A stretch of DNA of 49,877 nucleotides from IMG/VR virus record IMGVR_UViG_3300022538_000866, positions 1-49,877 of that record, one strand, 5' to 3'. The stretch is from a virus. The position numbers and the translations under genes are program-made. Positions 1,934 through 45,953 of the stretch are shown here, piece after piece (positions within the stretch are counted from its first letter, which is position 1; every line of letters starts with the position of its first letter). The notes under the pieces were generated by a model. That model saw only the letters and a list, made by a program, of their open reading frames with translations. It had not been told where the DNA came from and ran no database searches.

Positions 1934-2257
1934 ATGACGACACTAAGAAATCTATGTAACATCCCCAAAAACAAATATCTCCTCATGGAGATGTTTGAGA
2001 ATGGCAAAAAGGTTGCCGAACAAGGCATTTCCAATATGACTTGTCGGGAGCTAAAATGGATGATCGAATATCAAGAGGATTTGGGGAGGGCATGGAGCTA
2101 CAAAACGGTAGAATACCCCTACGCCGAATTTGTAGGAATGCAAGAAGATGTTGGAGATAGGCCGGCAATACCCATTTATAATATCATCGGCGGGCCTAAG
2201 CATGGGAGTACAGTATCAAAACAGACATTGATTAAGCTTGATATTGAGATTCCTTAA
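1934..2257 (+). CDS. Hypothetical protein
   Basis: 107 residues, ATG preceded by TAGGAG. Soluble; mixed helix and strand (MTCRELKWMIEYQEDLGRAW). It is the last gene of the rightward block and converges on the leftward replication module. The ORF on the opposite strand inside it is a shadow. No known domain recognised. Confidence 0.65.
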   Translation: MTTLRNLCNIPKNKYLLMEMFENGKKVAEQGISNMTCRELKWMIEYQEDLGRAWSYKTVEYPYAEFVGMQEDVGDRPAIPIYNIIGGPKHGSTVSKQTLIKLDIEIP

Positions 2258-2344
2258 CCATCCATCACCCCTTCACAAGCAAGAAAGGGCTCCACAATCC
2301 AATCTTCCAGGTAAAGGGCAAGGAAGAATTGGTACATGGTTAAG
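2253..2344. other. Inverted repeat spanning the convergent gene junction
   Basis: CTTAACCAT (2253-2261) is perfectly complementary to ATGGTTAAG (2336-2344). Inside, CCAAT/TTCC at about 2299-2308 pairs imperfectly with GGAAGAATTGG at 2322-2332. The structure fills the gap between the convergent genes ending at 2257 and 2362. It may act as a bidirectional transcription barrier. The flanks CTTAAC and GTTAAG resemble attC core sites, but the interior does not fold like a typical attC. Confidence 0.45.
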
Positions 2345-2361
2345 AATACTATTCTCATTTT

Positions 2362-2655
2362 TTAAATATCCTTTCTTTTCTTTATCATAAACAAAACAGA
2401 TTCAGCACTCTCAATCTCAAGATCCGCCAGTTTAATGAATTCATGAAATATCTTCCTACCAATTTCACTTATACCAGGTAATTTCTTCACACAATCTATT
2501 TTTAACTCCTCATAATAGGTTATTATTTTTTCTATTCCTTTAATAGTTTTAGCCTCCCAGGGAATTTCCCAAACAACAGGATGATATGTGTTGATATCTA
2601 ACTCAAGTCCGCTTAATGCTCTATCAGCCTGCTCTTTTATCATCTCATTATTCAT
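2362..2655 (-). CDS. Hypothetical protein, replication operon
   Basis: 97 residues, leftward, last gene of the repO operon. Its start overlaps the end of the DnaB-like ATPase gene by 8 bp, so the two are probably coupled. All-helical and charged, no motif recognised. By position it could be a helicase partner or loader, as lambda P is to O, but there is no sequence support for that. Confidence 0.65.
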   Translation of the reverse strand: MNNEMIKEQADRALSGLELDINTYHPVVWEIPWEAKTIKGIEKIITYYEELKIDCVKKLPGISEIGRKIFHEFIKLADLEIESAESVLFMIKKRKDI

Positions 2656-3427
2656 CCGCAGCCTCCCTTAATACTTTATCAATCTTTACAATGGGTATTT
2701 TCTTCTCGAGTACTCCTGTCCTCCTTGAATAGCATACCTTCAGCCATGCATGATTTTCGCTTGCCTTTACTCTCCATAATATCAGGCCGGTATCACTCTC
2801 CTGGCTGATGAAAGAACTATCCCTGATATTTGTGTGATCTGGCTCGTGATCTAAGGGTATCTTCTGGAAATGACAGAGAATAAAAATCACAATATTCAGC
2901 TCCAATGCTAATGTTTTAAGCCACCTGATTATCTGGCCTATCTGGATGCTTGCATTTCTGGATTGAGCCATGTCGAATAGAAAATGTAGGTGATCTATAA
3001 ACACAACTTGGATGCTGTGCTTAACTATGGCCTCAAGTATCCTTTCTTGTAGCCAGTCCAGAGCATAAGGTTTAAGTTTTTTAGGCAGTAGAAAAAAAGG
3101 AATCTCATCGAATCGATTAAGGAATTGTCTGGGAGTGAGCTCATAGGAGAACCAAAGGGATCTAACATCCTGTTGCTCGAAGTTCACTGTCAGCGTTTGG
3201 CCTAATAATGTCTTACCCCCTTTTGTAGGTCCGGAGATAGCTATTACCTCACCTGGTTCAAAGCCTTTTATTGCCAGATCAAGAGACGGAATTTTGGAAT
3301 CGAAGGTTTTCAGGATCGGCTCTTTCCTGATAATATCCTGCATATCATGGCTGGTTATTATCTCATCATCACCCTTATAGTCCATTAAGTTAGAAATCTT
3401 CTTCATCAAATCTTTTAGGTTTTGCAT
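2648..3427 (-). CDS. DnaB-like/RecA-fold replicative ATPase
   Basis: 259 residues. A Walker A motif GPTKGGKT lies near residue 66 and a Walker B VVFIDHLHFLF near 141. Downstream is a sensor-like ILCHFQK, and then RDSSFISQESD and ILWR, as in the C-terminal domain of DnaB-family helicases. It is shorter than full DnaB (about 450 residues) and lacks the usual N-terminal primase-binding domain. It overlaps the repO end by 38 bp and probably unwinds or loads at the phage origin. The alternative is a RecA/KaiC-like regulator. Confidence 0.75.
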   Translation of the reverse strand: MQNLKDLMKKISNLMDYKGDDEIITSHDMQDIIRKEPILKTFDSKIPSLDLAIKGFEPGEVIAISGPTKGGKTLLGQTLTVNFEQQDVRSLWFSYELTPRQFLNRFDEIPFFLLPKKLKPYALDWLQERILEAIVKHSIQVVFIDHLHFLFDMAQSRNASIQIGQIIRWLKTLALELNIVIFILCHFQKIPLDHEPDHTNIRDSSFISQESDTGLILWRVKASENHAWLKVCYSRRTGVLEKKIPIVKIDKVLREAADE

Positions 3428-4091
3428 CGGCGGTCTCCATTTTAAGAGAAAGTTGATCGAATTGTTTTCTTAACTTAGATGTGGACAGAATATTGTTTTG
3501 CCAAAACTCATCTTGTTGACACCAATTGATTACTTTCTTAATCTCTTCTGGGTTTATTTCCCTTTTTAACAACTTGTTAATATCTATAGCCCATTTCTGA
3601 ATGTCTGGTCTCTCAAGAGAAGGTCTTCTTTTAAGGATTAGATTCAAGAGAAGTTTACTCGTCTCTATCTCAAAAGAGTTCTCACTATAGTCTTTTTCTT
3701 TCTTTCTTTTGAGTGCGCCTTTTTGGGCGACACTTTTGTCGCCTTTTTGGGCGACAGGCGCCTTTTTGGGCGACAGCTTCCAAGTTTCAAAATTCTTATT
3801 AAATCCATAACTTATGATACCATCTGTCGCCTTTTTGGGCGACACCTTTTTTAATATATTTTTACTAATTAACTTCTTTATAATTAAATGACATTTTCTT
3901 CTATCAATGCCTGTAGCCGCTGCGAATTGACTAATAGGGATCATATCTATTTTTTTCTTCCATCCCCAAGTTTTACGGAAGACTGTCCAAATAATTTGCC
4001 ATTCTTGGCCAGAGATTCTTGAAGATGAGAATTTATCAACAAGTTCCGTTGCTATTTGAAGGTATCCATCTTCACATTGGGGAGAGGCCAA
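3390..4091 (-). CDS. Replication initiator, phage RepO N-terminal family
   Basis: 233 residues. The N-terminal 90 residues match the winged-helix domain of lambda-O-like initiators (GYLQIATELVDKF, WQIIWTVFRKTWGWKKK, ISQFAAATGIDRRKCHLIIKKLI). The start is taken as TTG (4089-4091) because GGAAGG lies 8 bases upstream and no in-frame ATG is near. The middle of the gene carries four iterons, which give SPKKA in one frame and VAQKG in another. Known for the family: the protein binds iterons inside its own gene and recruits a helicase, here probably the next gene. Confidence 0.85.
   Translation of the reverse strand: MASPQCEDGYLQIATELVDKFSSSRISGQEWQIIWTVFRKTWGWKKKIDMIPISQFAAATGIDRRKCHLIIKKLISKNILKKVSPKKATDGIISYGFNKNFETWKLSPKKAPVAQKGDKSVAQKGALKRKKEKDYSENSFEIETSKLLLNLILKRRPSLERPDIQKWAIDINKLLKREINPEEIKKVINWCQQDEFWQNNILSTSKLRKQFDQLSLKMETADAKPKRFDEEDF
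3716..3844. repeat. Four iterons inside repO: candidate replication origin
   Basis: The 17-mer CGCCTTTTTGGGCGACA occurs exactly at 3716-3732, 3740-3756, 3759-3775 and 3828-3844. Copies 2 and 4 extend to the dyad GTCGCC-N6-GGCGAC. Two copies are translated in one frame and two in another, so selection acts on the DNA, not the peptide. AT-rich DNA lies between copies 3 and 4 (3782-3820) and beyond copy 4 (3845-3890), which would suit duplex opening. The layout parallels lambda ori inside gene O. Confidence 0.8.
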
Positions 4092-4112
4092 AAGTCAATC
4101 CTTCCAATAAAA

Positions 4113-4184
4113 AACCACTTAGACTGCTTTCGGCACACAAGTGAACCGCCTCGGTTGTCGCCAATCCGAGGTATCTAAGTGGTT
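4113..4184 (-). ncRNA. Three-way-junction leader RNA upstream of repO
   Basis: On the minus strand AACCACTTAGA (4174-4184) pairs perfectly with TCTAAGTGGTT (4113-4123). Between them are two hairpins. The first is CCTCGG-A-TTG closed by the GNRA tetraloop GCGA with CAA-CCGAGG (4149-4171). The second is CGG-TT-CAC closed by TTGT with GTG-CCG. A run of T residues follows directly and then the repO Shine-Dalgarno. It could be an attenuator, a translational switch or a ligand-sensing leader. No known riboswitch class was recognised. Confidence 0.6.
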
Positions 4185-4229
4185 ATATGAATGCAATTAA
4201 TTAACACCTGTGTATAAAAGCTTACCCCC

Positions 4230-4258
4230 ACCATACCCCCCACTTTCCCCCCTGTCAA
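4230..4258 (-). promoter_or_regulatory. Sigma-70 promoter for the repO operon
   Basis: Minus-strand TTGACA (4253-4258), a 17-bp spacer and TATGGT (4230-4235). The predicted transcript begins near 4223 and has a leader of about 130 nt that contains the three-way-junction element before repO. It fires divergently from the promoter at 4277-4305, with 18 bp between the two -35 boxes, so the two could interfere or share an operator. Confidence 0.7.
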
Positions 4259-4276
4259 TATTTATTTTAAAAAAGC

Positions 4277-4305
4277 TTGACTTTCTCAAGAAAGGGATTT
4301 ATAAT
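4277..4305 (+). promoter_or_regulatory. Consensus sigma-70 promoter for the CRISPR-repeat RNA
   Basis: TTGACT (4277-4282), exactly 17 bp, then TATAAT (4300-4305). This is the strongest-looking promoter in the window. Transcription would begin at about 4312, nine bases before the CRISPR repeat. No ORF of useful length follows before the terminator at 4412-4444, so the product is an RNA. Confidence 0.8.
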
Positions 4306-4320
4306 CCCTGTAAATCGTCA

Positions 4321-4350
4321 GTCGCCTCCATGCGGGGCGTGGATTGAAAC
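4321..4350 (+). CRISPR. Single type I-C CRISPR repeat unit
   Basis: The 30-nt unit begins GTCGCC and ends GCGTGGATTGAAAC, the hallmark of subtype I-C repeats, which are usually 32 nt. CGCCTC (4323-4328) pairs with GGGGCG (4334-4339) with one G-U, giving the usual I-C hairpin followed by the 5'-handle sequence (GGATTGAAAC). Relative to the usual repeat the upper stem and loop are shortened by about two bases. It is solitary: no other copy was seen in the window. Confidence 0.85.
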
Positions 4351-4411
4351 AAACATTAACTGAAATAGAGGTTCTCATGACTAAGCGTTAAGTTTAAAGT
4401 CCTTACCATTT

Positions 4412-4444
4412 AAACCCCGGTCTGATAACAGATCGGGGTTTTTT
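4412..4444 (+). terminator. Intrinsic terminator of the CRISPR-repeat RNA
   Basis: AAACCCCG (4412-4419) and GTCTG (4420-4424), loop ATAA, then CAGAT (4429-4433) and CGGGGTTT (4434-4441). This is a 13-bp stem with one G-U, followed by more T. It lies immediately after the leftward endolysin gene (stop at 4446), so it may also end leftward transcripts. Confidence 0.9.
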
Positions 4445-4445
4445 A

Positions 4446-5396
4446 TTATTTCCCTCTCTCCATCATCTCATAGAAAATACGCATCACCTTGAGCGTATAT
4501 ACTCTATCTTTACCGTCTGCCCCAGCATTATAGCGCCTTAGCGCATCATACGGACTGTTTCCCCTCTTCAGTAGCTTGATAGCGCATTTCATTCCGGCAT
4601 AATGAGAGGTCATCAGAGTCTTCTCAATGGCAGGAAGATCTTTTTTTTGGAATCCCATGACGATCCGGAAAGTCTCAGGCTTTTGCTGATATATGCCACG
4701 TTCGCCATGTTTTCCACGGACAAAACGGCCGTGAGATTCAGTACCTATTATGGCCATGAGCAGAATCGCAGTTTTCCTATGTGCAATCCAGGGCTCATCC
4801 CTGAAAAAATGCAGTGGCATCATTTCGGCATAATCGTAAATCTCTTCTGCTATTATGAGCCGTTCCATGTTAGCCATATCAGTTATAATTTTATTTAGCT
4901 TAAGTTGTGCCATTCTATAGTCATATTGGCAGCCCAAATTGCCGGTCGCTAGACAGTGTCTATGAAGATGTAGATCGTCAGAAAATAGCTTCACGTCGTT
5001 TTCAATTTCTCTATGACCTTTAAACTCCTTATTTGGAAATTTCAGATTCGCCATTCTGAAAATCTCTTCATCCAAAAGACGTAAAGTGTTTTCCCGGTAT
5101 CTTGATATACGATCCTCTGTCCACTGAGATTCCAGCCTTATCATTTGTCCTGGCCTGATAAGGACATAGGGGATCCCCTTTCTCCATTCCACTTTGAGCT
5201 CATTCCACTCTGCCAGATCCTGCCATTTGCGCCAGCTCCCCAATTCCTTTTGTGCTATCTTACTTAGGGTGTCGCCCTTTTGGACGGTATGGAAGGTGGA
5301 GGGGAAGACATCGGGCGGGAAGATGCATAGCGATATTATAAAGAGCAATAGCAGGATACACCAGACTGTATATGGGATTGTCTCGTTGATTTTCAC
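4446..5396 (-). CDS. Endolysin: membrane anchor, LysM and lytic transglycosylase
   Basis: 316 residues from a GTG start (5394-5396) that overlaps the previous stop. Residues 8-28 form a hydrophobic signal-anchor. A LysM domain follows at about 36-86 (HTVQKGDTLSKIAQKELG). The C-terminal third is an SLT-type domain with catalytic Glu in GTESHG, the GERGIYQQKPETF loop and RYNAG. Known: such enzymes cleave the MurNAc-GlcNAc bond. The signal-anchor suggests export without a large holin. A second peptidoglycan enzyme lies at 47686-47982. Confidence 0.88.
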   Translation of the reverse strand: MKINETIPYTVWCILLLLFIISLCIFPPDVFPSTFHTVQKGDTLSKIAQKELGSWRKWQDLAEWNELKVEWRKGIPYVLIRPGQMIRLESQWTEDRISRYRENTLRLLDEEIFRMANLKFPNKEFKGHREIENDVKLFSDDLHLHRHCLATGNLGCQYDYRMAQLKLNKIITDMANMERLIIAEEIYDYAEMMPLHFFRDEPWIAHRKTAILLMAIIGTESHGRFVRGKHGERGIYQQKPETFRIVMGFQKKDLPAIEKTLMTSHYAGMKCAIKLLKRGNSPYDALRRYNAGADGKDRVYTLKVMRIFYEMMERGK

Positions 5397-5764
5397 TGTT
5401 TGTCTCCTTTTAATGGTTTCATTTCATTAATACTTTTGTTGCATATTTTTACCCCTTCCTCACATAAATTGACAAACTTATCATGTGTTTCTGTTGGGGA
5501 TGTATCAGCCTGTTTGTTATGCCTCATTCCCCATAATATATCTCTGAGCCTGTATATTTCTTTTTTAGTCATGGTAGCTCCTGTTGGTGGTCTGTTTGTA
5601 ATCTCATCTATTTGCTGAGATCCATATCGTTTTTCAGCCTCAGCCTCCGCAAGCCGCCGGTCACTCTGCCATATGGTAAAATCGGTACTGTGATATTCCC
5701 ACCATGCGGCTCCGGCAACAAAGGCTCTGCGTAGGTCATTTTGAGGCCATGTTCCTTCCCGCAT
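5393..5764 (-). CDS. Hypothetical phage protein
   Basis: 123 residues. Its N-terminus (LRRAFVAGAAWWEYHS, WQSDRRLAEAEAEKRYG) resembles short phage proteins found next to lysis or methylation genes; no function is established. The C-terminal half is a charged helix with no membrane segment. The TGA overlaps the GTG of the endolysin (GTGA), so the two are translationally coupled. Confidence 0.65.
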   Translation of the reverse strand: MREGTWPQNDLRRAFVAGAAWWEYHSTDFTIWQSDRRLAEAEAEKRYGSQQIDEITNRPPTGATMTKKEIYRLRDILWGMRHNKQADTSPTETHDKFVNLCEEGVKICNKSINEMKPLKGDKQ

Positions 5765-5774
5765 TTCAGCTCCT

Positions 5775-5999
5775 TTAACTTATGCCAGGTGAATCTTTAC
5801 AAATCTCAATTGCCAAACGGGCTTCTTTGTGATCCGCTGACATCGTTGCACCTTCAAGGTTTACTCCTTTTGGCAGCCCGATAAATTGAAATTGCTTGCC
5901 ACATATCTGACACCATATCTGGATATCGGCTTGGTAGTATTTACCATCATCAATTCGATTGATTTCGGTTTCAGCATGAAAGGCATCGTGTTTGCACAT
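5775..5999 (-). CDS. Small protein with a CxxC zinc knuckle
   Basis: 74 residues. WCQICGKQFQF gives one CxxC, and Cys2, His4 and His8 near the N-terminus (MCKHDAFH) could complete a zinc site. GLPKG is typical of short phage proteins of this kind. It lies ten bases upstream of the next gene in a leftward operon. Function unknown. Confidence 0.65.
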   Translation of the reverse strand: MCKHDAFHAETEINRIDDGKYYQADIQIWCQICGKQFQFIGLPKGVNLEGATMSADHKEARLAIEICKDSPGIS

Positions 6000-6207
6000 T
6001 TAATCACCTAAATTGCTGGTTAAAAGTTAGGCTGGGTTAAACTCCGATTTTCTCTCCCAGCCCGTGAAAGGAGGCTCCAGCCCTGCAAAATTATTTTACA
6101 TTCGGCGCATTGCTGGAAAGCTCGTAAATGCACTAAGGCTCGTGAGCACACCGTTAGTCATGAGCCAGTTATGAAAGCCGAATAACCACAGCAGGCGAGT
6201 TATTTCT
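6000..6207. other. Gene-free structured interval
   Basis: 208 bp without a credible gene. GGCTGGG (6031-6037) pairs with CCCAGCC (6056-6062), and AATAAC (6181-6186) with GTTATT (6199-6204), each flanking short loops. Several TAAC and GTTA cores occur (for example ccGTTAGtc at about 6151), which recall degraded attC sites, but no R''/R' pair with a matching arm could be assigned. No promoter recognised. Confidence 0.3.
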
Positions 6208-6468
6208 CTAAGCCCTTCTTATAGTGGATCTTTCTGTTTCATCACAATCTGCCGCATCTGCTTCAGCCCCTGTTTCAGGTTGTGGACCTAATTTTGAATA
6301 TTCATCTTCAACACTCTTGGGATTTTCAAGATACTCGTTTAAATAACTAAGCAGTTCTACTCTACTGTTCGCCACAAATGTCCCGCAACCTACCTTCACA
6401 ATAAATCCTTTATTTTGAGAAGGAATAATGTGAATTTCATATTTAATAATTCGACCTATTTCTAACAT
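6208..6468 (-). CDS. Small hypothetical protein
   Basis: 86 residues, ATG preceded by GGAGGTGAT. The first 60 residues read as a small alpha/beta fold (IIKYEIHIIPSQNKGFIVKVGCGTFVANS). The C-terminal 30 are acidic and low-complexity (EAEADAADCDETERST). Such text is common in phage early genes of unknown role. Confidence 0.65.
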   Translation of the reverse strand: MLEIGRIIKYEIHIIPSQNKGFIVKVGCGTFVANSRVELLSYLNEYLENPKSVEDEYSKLGPQPETGAEADAADCDETERSTIRRA

Positions 6469-6505
6469 TTATATCACCTCCTTTCATATGGATTAGGAGA
6501 AGAAG

Positions 6506-6691
6506 CTATTTCTCCCGAAACACTTCTATCCGAATCTTTACGATCCGGTCCTTGTCCTCGATGGCTCCATATGCTTTTTGAAATGTCTTATAAAGGCCAC
6601 GAAATGAATTTCTGATATTGCCTCTTATAATGCTCCATACCCCAGGTCCATTTCTCTTGATTAAGAGCACGTTTCTTGCTTTAAATTTCAT
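6506..6691 (-). CDS. Small basic hypothetical protein
   Basis: 61 residues, ATG preceded by AAGGAG. Basic, with predicted strands and one helix (RNVLLIKRNGPGVWSIIRG). No motif recognised. Part of the leftward chain of small genes 7380-6208. Confidence 0.55.
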   Translation of the reverse strand: MKFKARNVLLIKRNGPGVWSIIRGNIRNSFRGLYKTFQKAYGAIEDKDRIVKIRIEVFREK

Positions 6692-6730
6692 GATTTCTCC
6701 TTGTTAGATGTTAATATTTACTTTACCAAC

Positions 6731-6892
6731 TTAGAAGTATTTATTTCCATATTGTTTTTCCAGTAGCAATTGAAATGCCTCATCCCCCATATCCAGGGGG
6801 TGTCGTCTGCGGGCTCTCGCATCACAAATTTTCTTTATAAGCGCCGCGATTGCCACGGCTATGGCGGTAATGATTAAAACTGTATAATTCAT
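6731..6892 (-). CDS. Single-span membrane microprotein
   Basis: 53 residues from ATG at 6892, preceded by GAGGAGG; that Shine-Dalgarno overlaps the end of the upstream gene. Residues 2-20 (NYTVLIITAIAVAIAALIK) form one transmembrane helix, followed by a basic segment (KKICDARARRRH) and a soluble tail. The topology suits a holin-like or inner-membrane accessory peptide. No family recognised. Confidence 0.7.
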   Translation of the reverse strand: MNYTVLIITAIAVAIAALIKKICDARARRRHPLDMGDEAFQLLLEKQYGNKYF

Positions 6893-6893
6893 C

Positions 6894-7139
6894 TTATGCC
6901 TCCTCATTTAAAGACTTCGGTTTAGTATTTATCGGAACCCACCAACATTCGTGACCCCAAAGTATATTTCCATCATCAAGTTTAATTCGTACAAATCCAT
7001 TTTCATCTTTCTTAGCAAAGCCCTCTTTACCAATATGGAGTTTGCTGATTTCAGGAGTAGTGAGGGTAAAATCTTTCCCTCCCATTGTCCTTTTTAATCC
7101 TGTCACATCAACTATCTTACATCTAACTGGATATTTCAT
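6894..7139 (-). CDS. Small hypothetical protein
   Basis: 81 residues, ATG preceded by GGGAGG. The text suggests a small beta-barrel (YPVRCKIVDVTGLKR, FVRIKLDDGNILWGHECWWVP). It is closely spaced with its neighbours. No known domain recognised. Confidence 0.65.
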   Translation of the reverse strand: MKYPVRCKIVDVTGLKRTMGGKDFTLTTPEISKLHIGKEGFAKKDENGFVRIKLDDGNILWGHECWWVPINTKPKSLNEEA

Positions 7140-44874: not shown

Positions 44875-44894
44875 CGTATTAGTTATGAGAATTT

Positions 44895-44944
44895 AATTCA
44901 AATCAACTCAACTCAGCATAACCCAAATCAACAAAACCTAAATC
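44895..44944 (-). repeat. Pentamer array 1 (10 units)
   Basis: Ten consecutive 5-bp units beginning at 44895 read, on the plus strand, AANNY in nine of ten (the fifth is AGCAT). It starts just past the terminator at 44874 and overlaps the last two codons of the RAMP-like gene. On the transcript (minus strand) each unit reads RNNUU. The units are not identical, so this is a periodic site ladder rather than a simple tandem repeat. Confidence 0.75.
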
Positions 44945-45465
44945 ACCTCATACTCCACAACTTCAAACCTACCATTCCCGTGATTCCTTCTCCCCCCGAT
45001 ACCGCAATAAGCTCCGGCATTCTCAAGGGCCTCTTTGATAAATGAAGATTCAAAGAAATCAGGGAATGTCATTTCAAATTTCAGACTCCAATCGCCTTTG
45101 ATGAAAGCCTGGATATTCCACCTCATCTTACCTTGATCGACCATGGTATGAAATTTATCTGTCTGAATATCATCCAGATTCATTTCCGGCTCGAAGAATA
45201 TATCTTCTGGCTTCACCCATAAGGCCGATAAGACAAGATTCTTGGCTCTCGTCTTGGATCTTTCTATCTTCATATTCATGGTGTCGATGGCATTCAGGAT
45301 AGTACCCTTTATCTGCCTGGCCGGAATATGAAGATGCCCGTTACAATACACCCGATTCATAGCCACTTTCATCTCTTGCGCCTCCCCTTTAGGGGTCTTA
45401 TCCTGTGTGGGACGTGAAAAGAAGTAGGGGGCTATACCTTTAATCTCTGCTTTTACTTTGTACAT
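44938..45465 (-). CDS. RAMP-superfamily-like protein
   Basis: 175 residues, ATG preceded by AAAGGAG. YKVKAEIKGIAPYFFSRP is an N-terminal strand-turn. LHIPARQIKGTILNAI recalls the 'IPGSSLKGALR' segment of Cas7/Cmr/Csm RAMPs, and GIGGRRNHGNGRFEVVEYE is a RAMP glycine-rich loop. Phages have related proteins of unknown function in late operons. It is flanked on both sides by the ten-unit pentamer arrays. RNA binding is an inference from the fold-like motifs. Confidence 0.65.
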   Translation of the reverse strand: MYKVKAEIKGIAPYFFSRPTQDKTPKGEAQEMKVAMNRVYCNGHLHIPARQIKGTILNAIDTMNMKIERSKTRAKNLVLSALWVKPEDIFFEPEMNLDDIQTDKFHTMVDQGKMRWNIQAFIKGDWSLKFEMTFPDFFESSFIKEALENAGAYCGIGGRRNHGNGRFEVVEYEVI

Positions 45466-45494
45466 GATGTTTCTCCTTTAATTTATTTTAGATT

Positions 45495-45544
45495 AACGCA
45501 ACGTAAACCAACTGAAACCAACTCAAAGCAACACAACAAAACAT
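45495..45544 (-). repeat. Pentamer array 2 (10 units), upstream of the RAMP-like gene
   Basis: Ten of ten units start with AA on the plus strand (for example AACGC, AACGT, AAACC); eight end in a pyrimidine. On the minus strand it lies about 15 bases upstream of the Shine-Dalgarno (45473-45479) of the RAMP-like gene, in its 5' leader. Confidence 0.85.
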
Positions 45545-45568
45545 TCTCTTGCGCAAAGGAAAGTCTTT

Positions 45569-45618
45569 AATTTAATATAACGTAAGCCAATCTAACTCAA
45601 GCAAAGGTAATGCAACGC
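45569..45618 (-). repeat. Pentamer array 3 (10 units)
   Basis: Ten of ten units start with AA; nine end in a pyrimidine. It begins right after the stop codon of the 45620-45880 gene and is 24 bp from array 2, so a transcript would carry twenty units in two blocks. The first three units (AATTT AATAT AACG) match array 4, which suggests copying. Confidence 0.85.
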
Positions 45619-45619
45619 A

Positions 45620-45880
45620 TCACTTCTTCTTATCAGGCAATAAATTCTGCTCTTTTACAAGCTTTTTGATTTCTTCTCTATCCTTGGCAATCCATTTGAC
45701 TATCTTCAGGTTAATGGCCTTATTTTGGCCTGTACTGCCGAGGTGCTTTTGGTGTTGTTGGATATTGAACTGATTGAGTTTTACCCGTTCCGGCCCAAGG
45801 TCTTTATCTTTCCTCATCAGATCATTAAATTCTTGGGCACTGGCTTTGGCATTGTCCTCTAATAGTTCTCCTAAATCCAT
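45620..45880 (-). CDS. Small charged protein between pentamer arrays
   Basis: 86 residues, ATG preceded by AAGGAG. Charged, helical, mostly disordered-looking (LLEDNAKASAQEFNDLMRKDK, NLKIVKWIAKDREEIKKLV). No motif. It lies between arrays 4 and 3, with its own stop codon at the array edge. May be functionally linked to the RAMP-like gene. Confidence 0.6.
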   Translation of the reverse strand: MDLGELLEDNAKASAQEFNDLMRKDKDLGPERVKLNQFNIQQHQKHLGSTGQNKAINLKIVKWIAKDREEIKKLVKEQNLLPDKKK

Positions 45881-45903
45881 GGTATTCTCCTTTATGTTAG
45901 TTT

Positions 45904-45953
45904 AATTTAATATAACGCAACTCAACTTAACAGAAATTAAAATAACGTAACCT
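45904..45953 (-). repeat. Pentamer array 4 (10 units)
   Basis: Ten of ten units start with AA; nine end in a pyrimidine. It lies in the 5' leader of the 45620 gene, about 12 bases from its Shine-Dalgarno. With arrays 1-3 this makes 40 units, of which 39 begin AA and 35 end in C or T. Confidence 0.85.

Follow-up and report, generated by a model that had tools for sequence, protein, structure and literature searches.

The virus record IMGVR_UViG_3300022538_000866 (49,877 nt, analysed over its full length and referred to below as the window) encodes a portal, a major head protein, an O-like initiator, a DnaB-like helicase and RecT, and harbours a single type I-C CRISPR repeat in an intergenic region. 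The question raised by this locus is what such a lone repeat may do in a phage. A preliminary description, made from the sequence alone, had proposed that it opens a short transcription unit specifying an RNA anti-CRISPR (Racr).

Organization of the repeat unit

The unit is headed by a sigma-70-like promoter on the plus strand (4277–4305), in which the -35 box TTGACT (4277–4282) and the -10 box TATAAT (4300–4305) are separated by a 17-nt spacer. With 11/12 consensus matches, it is near-consensus, and ranked best of 12 promoter-like sites in a scan of positions 2000–7000, a region in which the total of such sites was not above that of shuffled sequence. Two palindromes on the same strand, CTTTCTCAAGAAAG (4281–4294) and GGGATTTATAATCCC (4294–4308), lie across the promoter and are possible operators, judging from their sequence. 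The 30-nt repeat GTCGCCTCCATGCGGGGCGTGGATTGAAAC (4321–4350, plus strand), identified by sequence and pattern search, follows immediately downstream. Since it starts 15 nt past the -10 box, transcription is expected to begin ~8 nt ahead of it (4312–4313), and with its end set by the terminator the predicted small RNA would comprise ~130 nt (4312–4444), in agreement with the 133-nt RNA opening with one I-C repeat that had been described.

The repeat consists of a hairpin with 6 bp and a 5-nt loop (4321–4339) and a predicted 5' handle of 11 nt, UGGAUUGAAAC (4340–4350). It is followed by a unique tail of 61 nt (4351–4411, 31% G+C) and an intrinsic terminator (4412–4444), whose 13-pair stem AAACCCCGGTCTG/ATAA/CAGATCGGGGTTT with its T-run (stem part 4412–4441) ranked best of four in the scan of 2000–7000 and thus bore out the strong terminator noted earlier. 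All these elements are on the plus strand. Within the tail, AGAGG, which resembles a ribosome site, and an ORF of four codons (ATG ACT AAG CGT TAA) were observed at 4366–4392, probably by chance.

The motif GTGGATTGAAAC occurs once in the 49,877-nt record. No second or degenerate repeat was detected, the best candidate within 400 nt on either side reaching 14/30, under the top of the shuffles; the statement that there is no array therefore stood, as judged on one 50-kb linear virus record. The same was true of the cas genes: no recognised I-C cas gene was found in the record, and a RAMP-fold protein encoded 40 kb off is Vipr-like by weak matches. Near the repeat, no acr or aca gene was recognised, and the small ORFs nearby had no Pfam or PADLOC match. 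Searches with the exact repeat gave 0 matches in both genome_contigs and viral_contigs. A short-stem I-C pattern, by contrast with its reversed-tail control (1 stretch), retrieved 76 stretches from viral_contigs, which excludes a chance origin of the motif.

The immediate neighbours of the unit are the genes for the O-like initiator (3390–4091) and a LysM protein. For the latter (LysM/endolysin-like), no relatives were found, and those of the initiator were only distant. No phage relative with a conserved copy of the repeat was found; a sister contig does not span the repeat region. The hairpins CGCCTTTTTGGGCG and GTCGCCTTTTTGGGCGAC recur at 3716–3844 in the initiator gene, resembling the origin iterons within lambda O. 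A divergent promoter (TTGACA, 17 nt, TATGGT; 4258–4230, minus strand) serves the replication operon, and the leader behind it (4190–4110, minus strand) is strongly structured, with nested hairpins and a T-run, and is possibly an attenuator. An Rfam search of the whole window, including the leader region (4110–4258, minus strand), returned no match.

Related repeats in bacterial arrays

Bacterial genomes searched with a flexible repeat pattern contained I-C arrays with repeats of 31–33 nt and a few 30-nt variants, as well as GTCGCCTCCCATGCGGGGGCGTGGATTGAAAC in a MAG titled Desulfopila aestuarii. The class of this MAG was chosen for further searching on the basis of that lead; I-C repeats were present in 84 of its 258 genomes, with spacers of 33–36 nt in the arrays. 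Relative to this choice, the closest array was that of G117, a complete genome (single 3.98-Mb contig) with nine copies of GTCGCCCTCCATGCGGGGGCGTGGATTGAAAC adjoining a complete I-C operon of cas3, cas5d, cas8c, cas7, cas4, cas1 and cas2, in this order (gene names assigned by reading the ORFs). The phage repeat corresponds to GTCGCCCTCCATGCGGGGGCGTGGATTGAAAC with one C and the G opposite it missing, so that a stem of 7 bp is reduced to 6 bp, while the loop, the wobble pair and the handle are the same in both. The preliminary description had placed a deficit of about two bases in the loop; the loop is in fact unchanged, and it is the stem that lacks one C-G pair.

The search of bacterial I-C arrays, which had been put forward as a means of naming the host, thus yielded a closest relative but stopped short of its purpose. 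There was no spacer match between the phage and G117 or any of the 258 class genomes, and the DNA shared with these genomes consisted, apart from the repeats, only of conserved coding genes and short matches. G117 is therefore not proven to be the host, also because the class was searched only after the Desulfopila lead. Three class genomes were seen to carry a lone I-C repeat between cas3 and cas5d, ~100 nt ahead of the cas5d start (L132, 694–726; L133, 674–706; L162, 1501–1529, reverse strand); one of the three repeats is short-stemmed (29 nt). A lone repeat in this position is a possible candidate site at which Cas5d may cut its own mRNA.

For the isolated phage repeat, folding predicted the canonical hairpin at -8.8 kcal/mol and an alternative in which the handle is paired at -9.0 kcal/mol; the G117 repeat is predicted to favour the canonical form (-12.1 kcal/mol). 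With the native leader included, the predicted fold again paired part of the handle. For the whole RNA, the folding energy was ordinary (z = -0.05). The idea that a UCA before the repeat blocks the handle by pairing with its UGA was rejected, as this pairing is absent from several other viral units in a by-eye comparison. The shorter stem thus makes the fold more ambiguous. The altered processing suspected earlier finds no support in the minimum for recognition and cleavage by Cas5d, a 3-bp stem with a tetraloop, as given in a review (PMC7064716, citing Nam et al. 2012).

Short-stemmed repeats in viruses

Repeats of at most 30 nt were rare among the I-C repeats of 251 class genomes (only seven cases), compared with ~2,070 of all lengths in 258 genomes (the sum of the per-genome counts). 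The distinct short-stem cases in viruses numbered 72, and 62 of them had no other repeat within 1 kb. Stems of 5–7 pairs and loops of 3–7 nt were present in 46 of these 62 solitary cases. The 46 units lay inside a long ORF in 41% (19/46), compared with 86% for random positions of the same contigs, and in 35% a terminator followed at a distance of up to 160 nt, compared with 7% at random positions; some of the 46 may be without function. At stem pairs 6 and 7, several combinations occur among them (C-G, U-A, A-U, G-C and G-U), such that complementarity is held while the letters change, in a set picked for stems of at least 5 pairs, which favours apparent pair conservation. The outer three pairs were set by the search pattern and are thus no evidence for conserved pairing. 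A promoter-anchored scan of viruses gave solitary units of 27–33 nt, of which about half did not exceed 30 nt. A shortened stem seems to recur among viruses. One viral contig (L034, from ~5069, reverse strand) was seen to contain a mini-array downstream of a consensus promoter; its three repeats of I-C type (first 23 nt) differ greatly in their stems.

Measured against the Cas5d minimum as reported in that review, the short viral repeats look like minimal Cas5d substrates, which suggests that viruses retain what Cas5d requires and drop the remainder of the repeat. No description of a shortened viral stem was found in the literature cited here, and the word 'shorter' is absent from the text of the paper on Racrs (PMC10651486). 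The Racr finder used there demanded that candidates score high in similarity to known repeats, so that short-stem units may have gone unseen. We tentatively propose, with slightly less than even confidence, that the solitary I-C repeats of viruses are a class of compact decoys, widespread and with stems that have shrunk toward the minimal Cas5d substrate with their pairing kept, and that they tend to escape searches based on full-repeat similarity. As RNA anti-CRISPRs are recognised mainly through such similarity, many would have been overlooked if viruses systematically shorten stems. The short forms would then be natural minimal substrates for studying RNA decoys of type I-C, a very common subtype, and shortening could uncouple binding from productive crRNP assembly or block recombination with host arrays.

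Interpretation of the repeat unit

The repeat unit is probably a Racr of subtype I-C that would act as a decoy for a host type I-C system, by analogy with RacrIF1 and RacrIC1 (PMC10651486). It is virus-borne, solitary, intergenic, placed behind a promoter, terminated and near-identical to an I-C array repeat, so that every sequence hallmark of the class named in the preliminary description was found. RacrIC1, from a Bifidobacterium pseudocatenulatum prophage, is a lone I-C repeat RNA that shields a phage from type I-C (PMC10651486). Like the unit described here, it mimics the hairpin and handle of a host repeat, and it is transcribed, as the phage unit is predicted to be. However, it lies 11 nt downstream of acrIC5 and shares one bicistronic RNA with this gene, whereas the phage unit comes with a promoter and a terminator of its own, and no acr gene was recognised beside it. 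In this respect the phage unit resembles RacrIF1 of type I-F, a stand-alone intergenic repeat in a Thiocystis prophage that is expressed as a small RNA from its own promoter and engages the repeat-processing protein and Cas7, forming aberrant complexes (PMC10651486). RacrIF1 is processed by Cas6f, with the upstream stem-loop product being inhibitory; in subtype I-C, to which the phage unit belongs, the processing enzyme is Cas5d rather than Cas6f, and the useful product may therefore differ. By this analogy, the phage unit most likely adds a short-stemmed member to the known RNA anti-CRISPR family, in which one I-C example (RacrIC1) has been tested.

We infer a course of events in which the host, the timing, transcription, binding and cutting by Cas5d and sequestration are all assigned by this reasoning. 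The strong promoter would fire during infection and give rise to the ~130-nt RNA, whose 5' end would mimic the host I-C repeat and, as for the known Racrs, might occupy Cas5d. After cleavage, the handle and the unmatched 61-nt tail would gather Cas7 and possibly Cas8, and with a tail devoid of a target this would produce dead effector complexes and starve the real crRNAs. Given the alternative fold, a decoy that is bound but uncut is also conceivable.

Other readings give the tail a role as a guide, and a check of the 3' unique part (4351–4411) for protospacer matches had been suggested. The tail was compared with 50,697 phage records and 72,556 plasmid records, which gave only short partial matches (E ~0.5–10) and no coherent target, and with the 258 class genomes, in which no match was convincing; within the phage itself, no self-target rose above the shuffles. 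This bears directly on the idea that the unit is a minimal crRNA of one repeat and one spacer, which would turn the host Cascade on rival phages or plasmids. Such an RNA has precedents in viral mini-arrays, which, like the record studied here, combine CRISPR repeats with an absence of cas genes (PMC11656645), and I-C processing could in principle yield a 5' handle from an upstream repeat alone. However, the mini-arrays place one or two spacers, mostly directed against related viruses, between repeats, whereas a second repeat is missing from this record, and a tail of 61 nt contrasts with class spacers of 33–36 nt. With no convincing target in these collections either, we regard a minimal crRNA as quite unlikely.

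A guide might instead address the host's own DNA, as do CreR and CreA, whose single crRNA-like units engage the host Cascade in a manner that the phage unit would match in outline; CreR RNAs repress cas promoters (PMC12737573). In this scenario, Cascade would take the RNA with its handle and tail to a partly complementary promoter, for instance that of the host cas genes, and repress it. The 9 nt that open the tail (AAACATTAA) do recur ~180 nt upstream of G117 cas3, but a seed match of at least 9 nt was obtained in 4/40 shuffles over the same locus, and the tail matches the site at only 16/35 positions. The site is moreover preceded by TGA and not by the I-C PAM, TTC. CreR and CreA require partial promoter complementarity (PMC12737573), and no such complementarity with a PAM was found in the window or the G117 cas3 region. 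The phage itself offers no target and G117 is not an established host, and a CreR/CreA-like guide is accordingly unlikely. The unit could also be a functionless relic, that is, a piece of host array or cas operon gained by recombination. Bacterial genomes do hold lone and degenerate I-C repeats, and a lone one stands ahead of cas5d in three class genomes, yet the phage repeat is equipped with its own near-consensus promoter and a terminator within a compact phage genome, it has lost exactly one base pair, unlike in random decay, and short-stem solitary repeats recur in many unrelated viruses. Retention of promoter, terminator and a paired stem would be unexpected in a relic, and we consider this origin very unlikely. 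For the Racr reading, the unit constitutes a clean test case, since promoter, repeat and terminator are contained in ~170 nt and a full-length counterpart differs by one base pair.

A Vipr-like locus elsewhere in the phage

A second locus, unrelated to the repeat unit, was noted on the minus strand at 44,890–45,950. It encodes a protein of 175 aa (44938–45465) with a weak match to the RAMP family PF03787 (E = 0.001, under the curated cut-off), whose best solved relative is Vipr of phage SUSP1, also with a weak match (E = 0.09). Structure prediction of this protein without an alignment was poor, and the only relative of the locus found was a near-identical sister contig. The protein is flanked on the same strand by three runs in which TT recurs exactly every 5 nt, ten times in each (45495–45541, 45569–45615 and 45904–45950), and an imperfect TT run (~44890–44935); block-shuffled windows gave one run of at least 7 units in 20 tries. 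Two of the runs have (G/T)TT as their constant part and one has NTT; ATTAAATTAAA stands at the end of two. In the VIPR systems of a 2026 preprint (PMC13142463), a RAMP protein is likewise combined with pentanucleotide-repeat RNAs, the guide RNAs consisting of GGY/NN repeats and then a tail, whereas the code in the phage is (G/T)TT/NN. As the preprint admits 'a related consensus' in some VIPR types, the locus is probably, as far as its sequence indicates, a new VIPR member with a divergent code.
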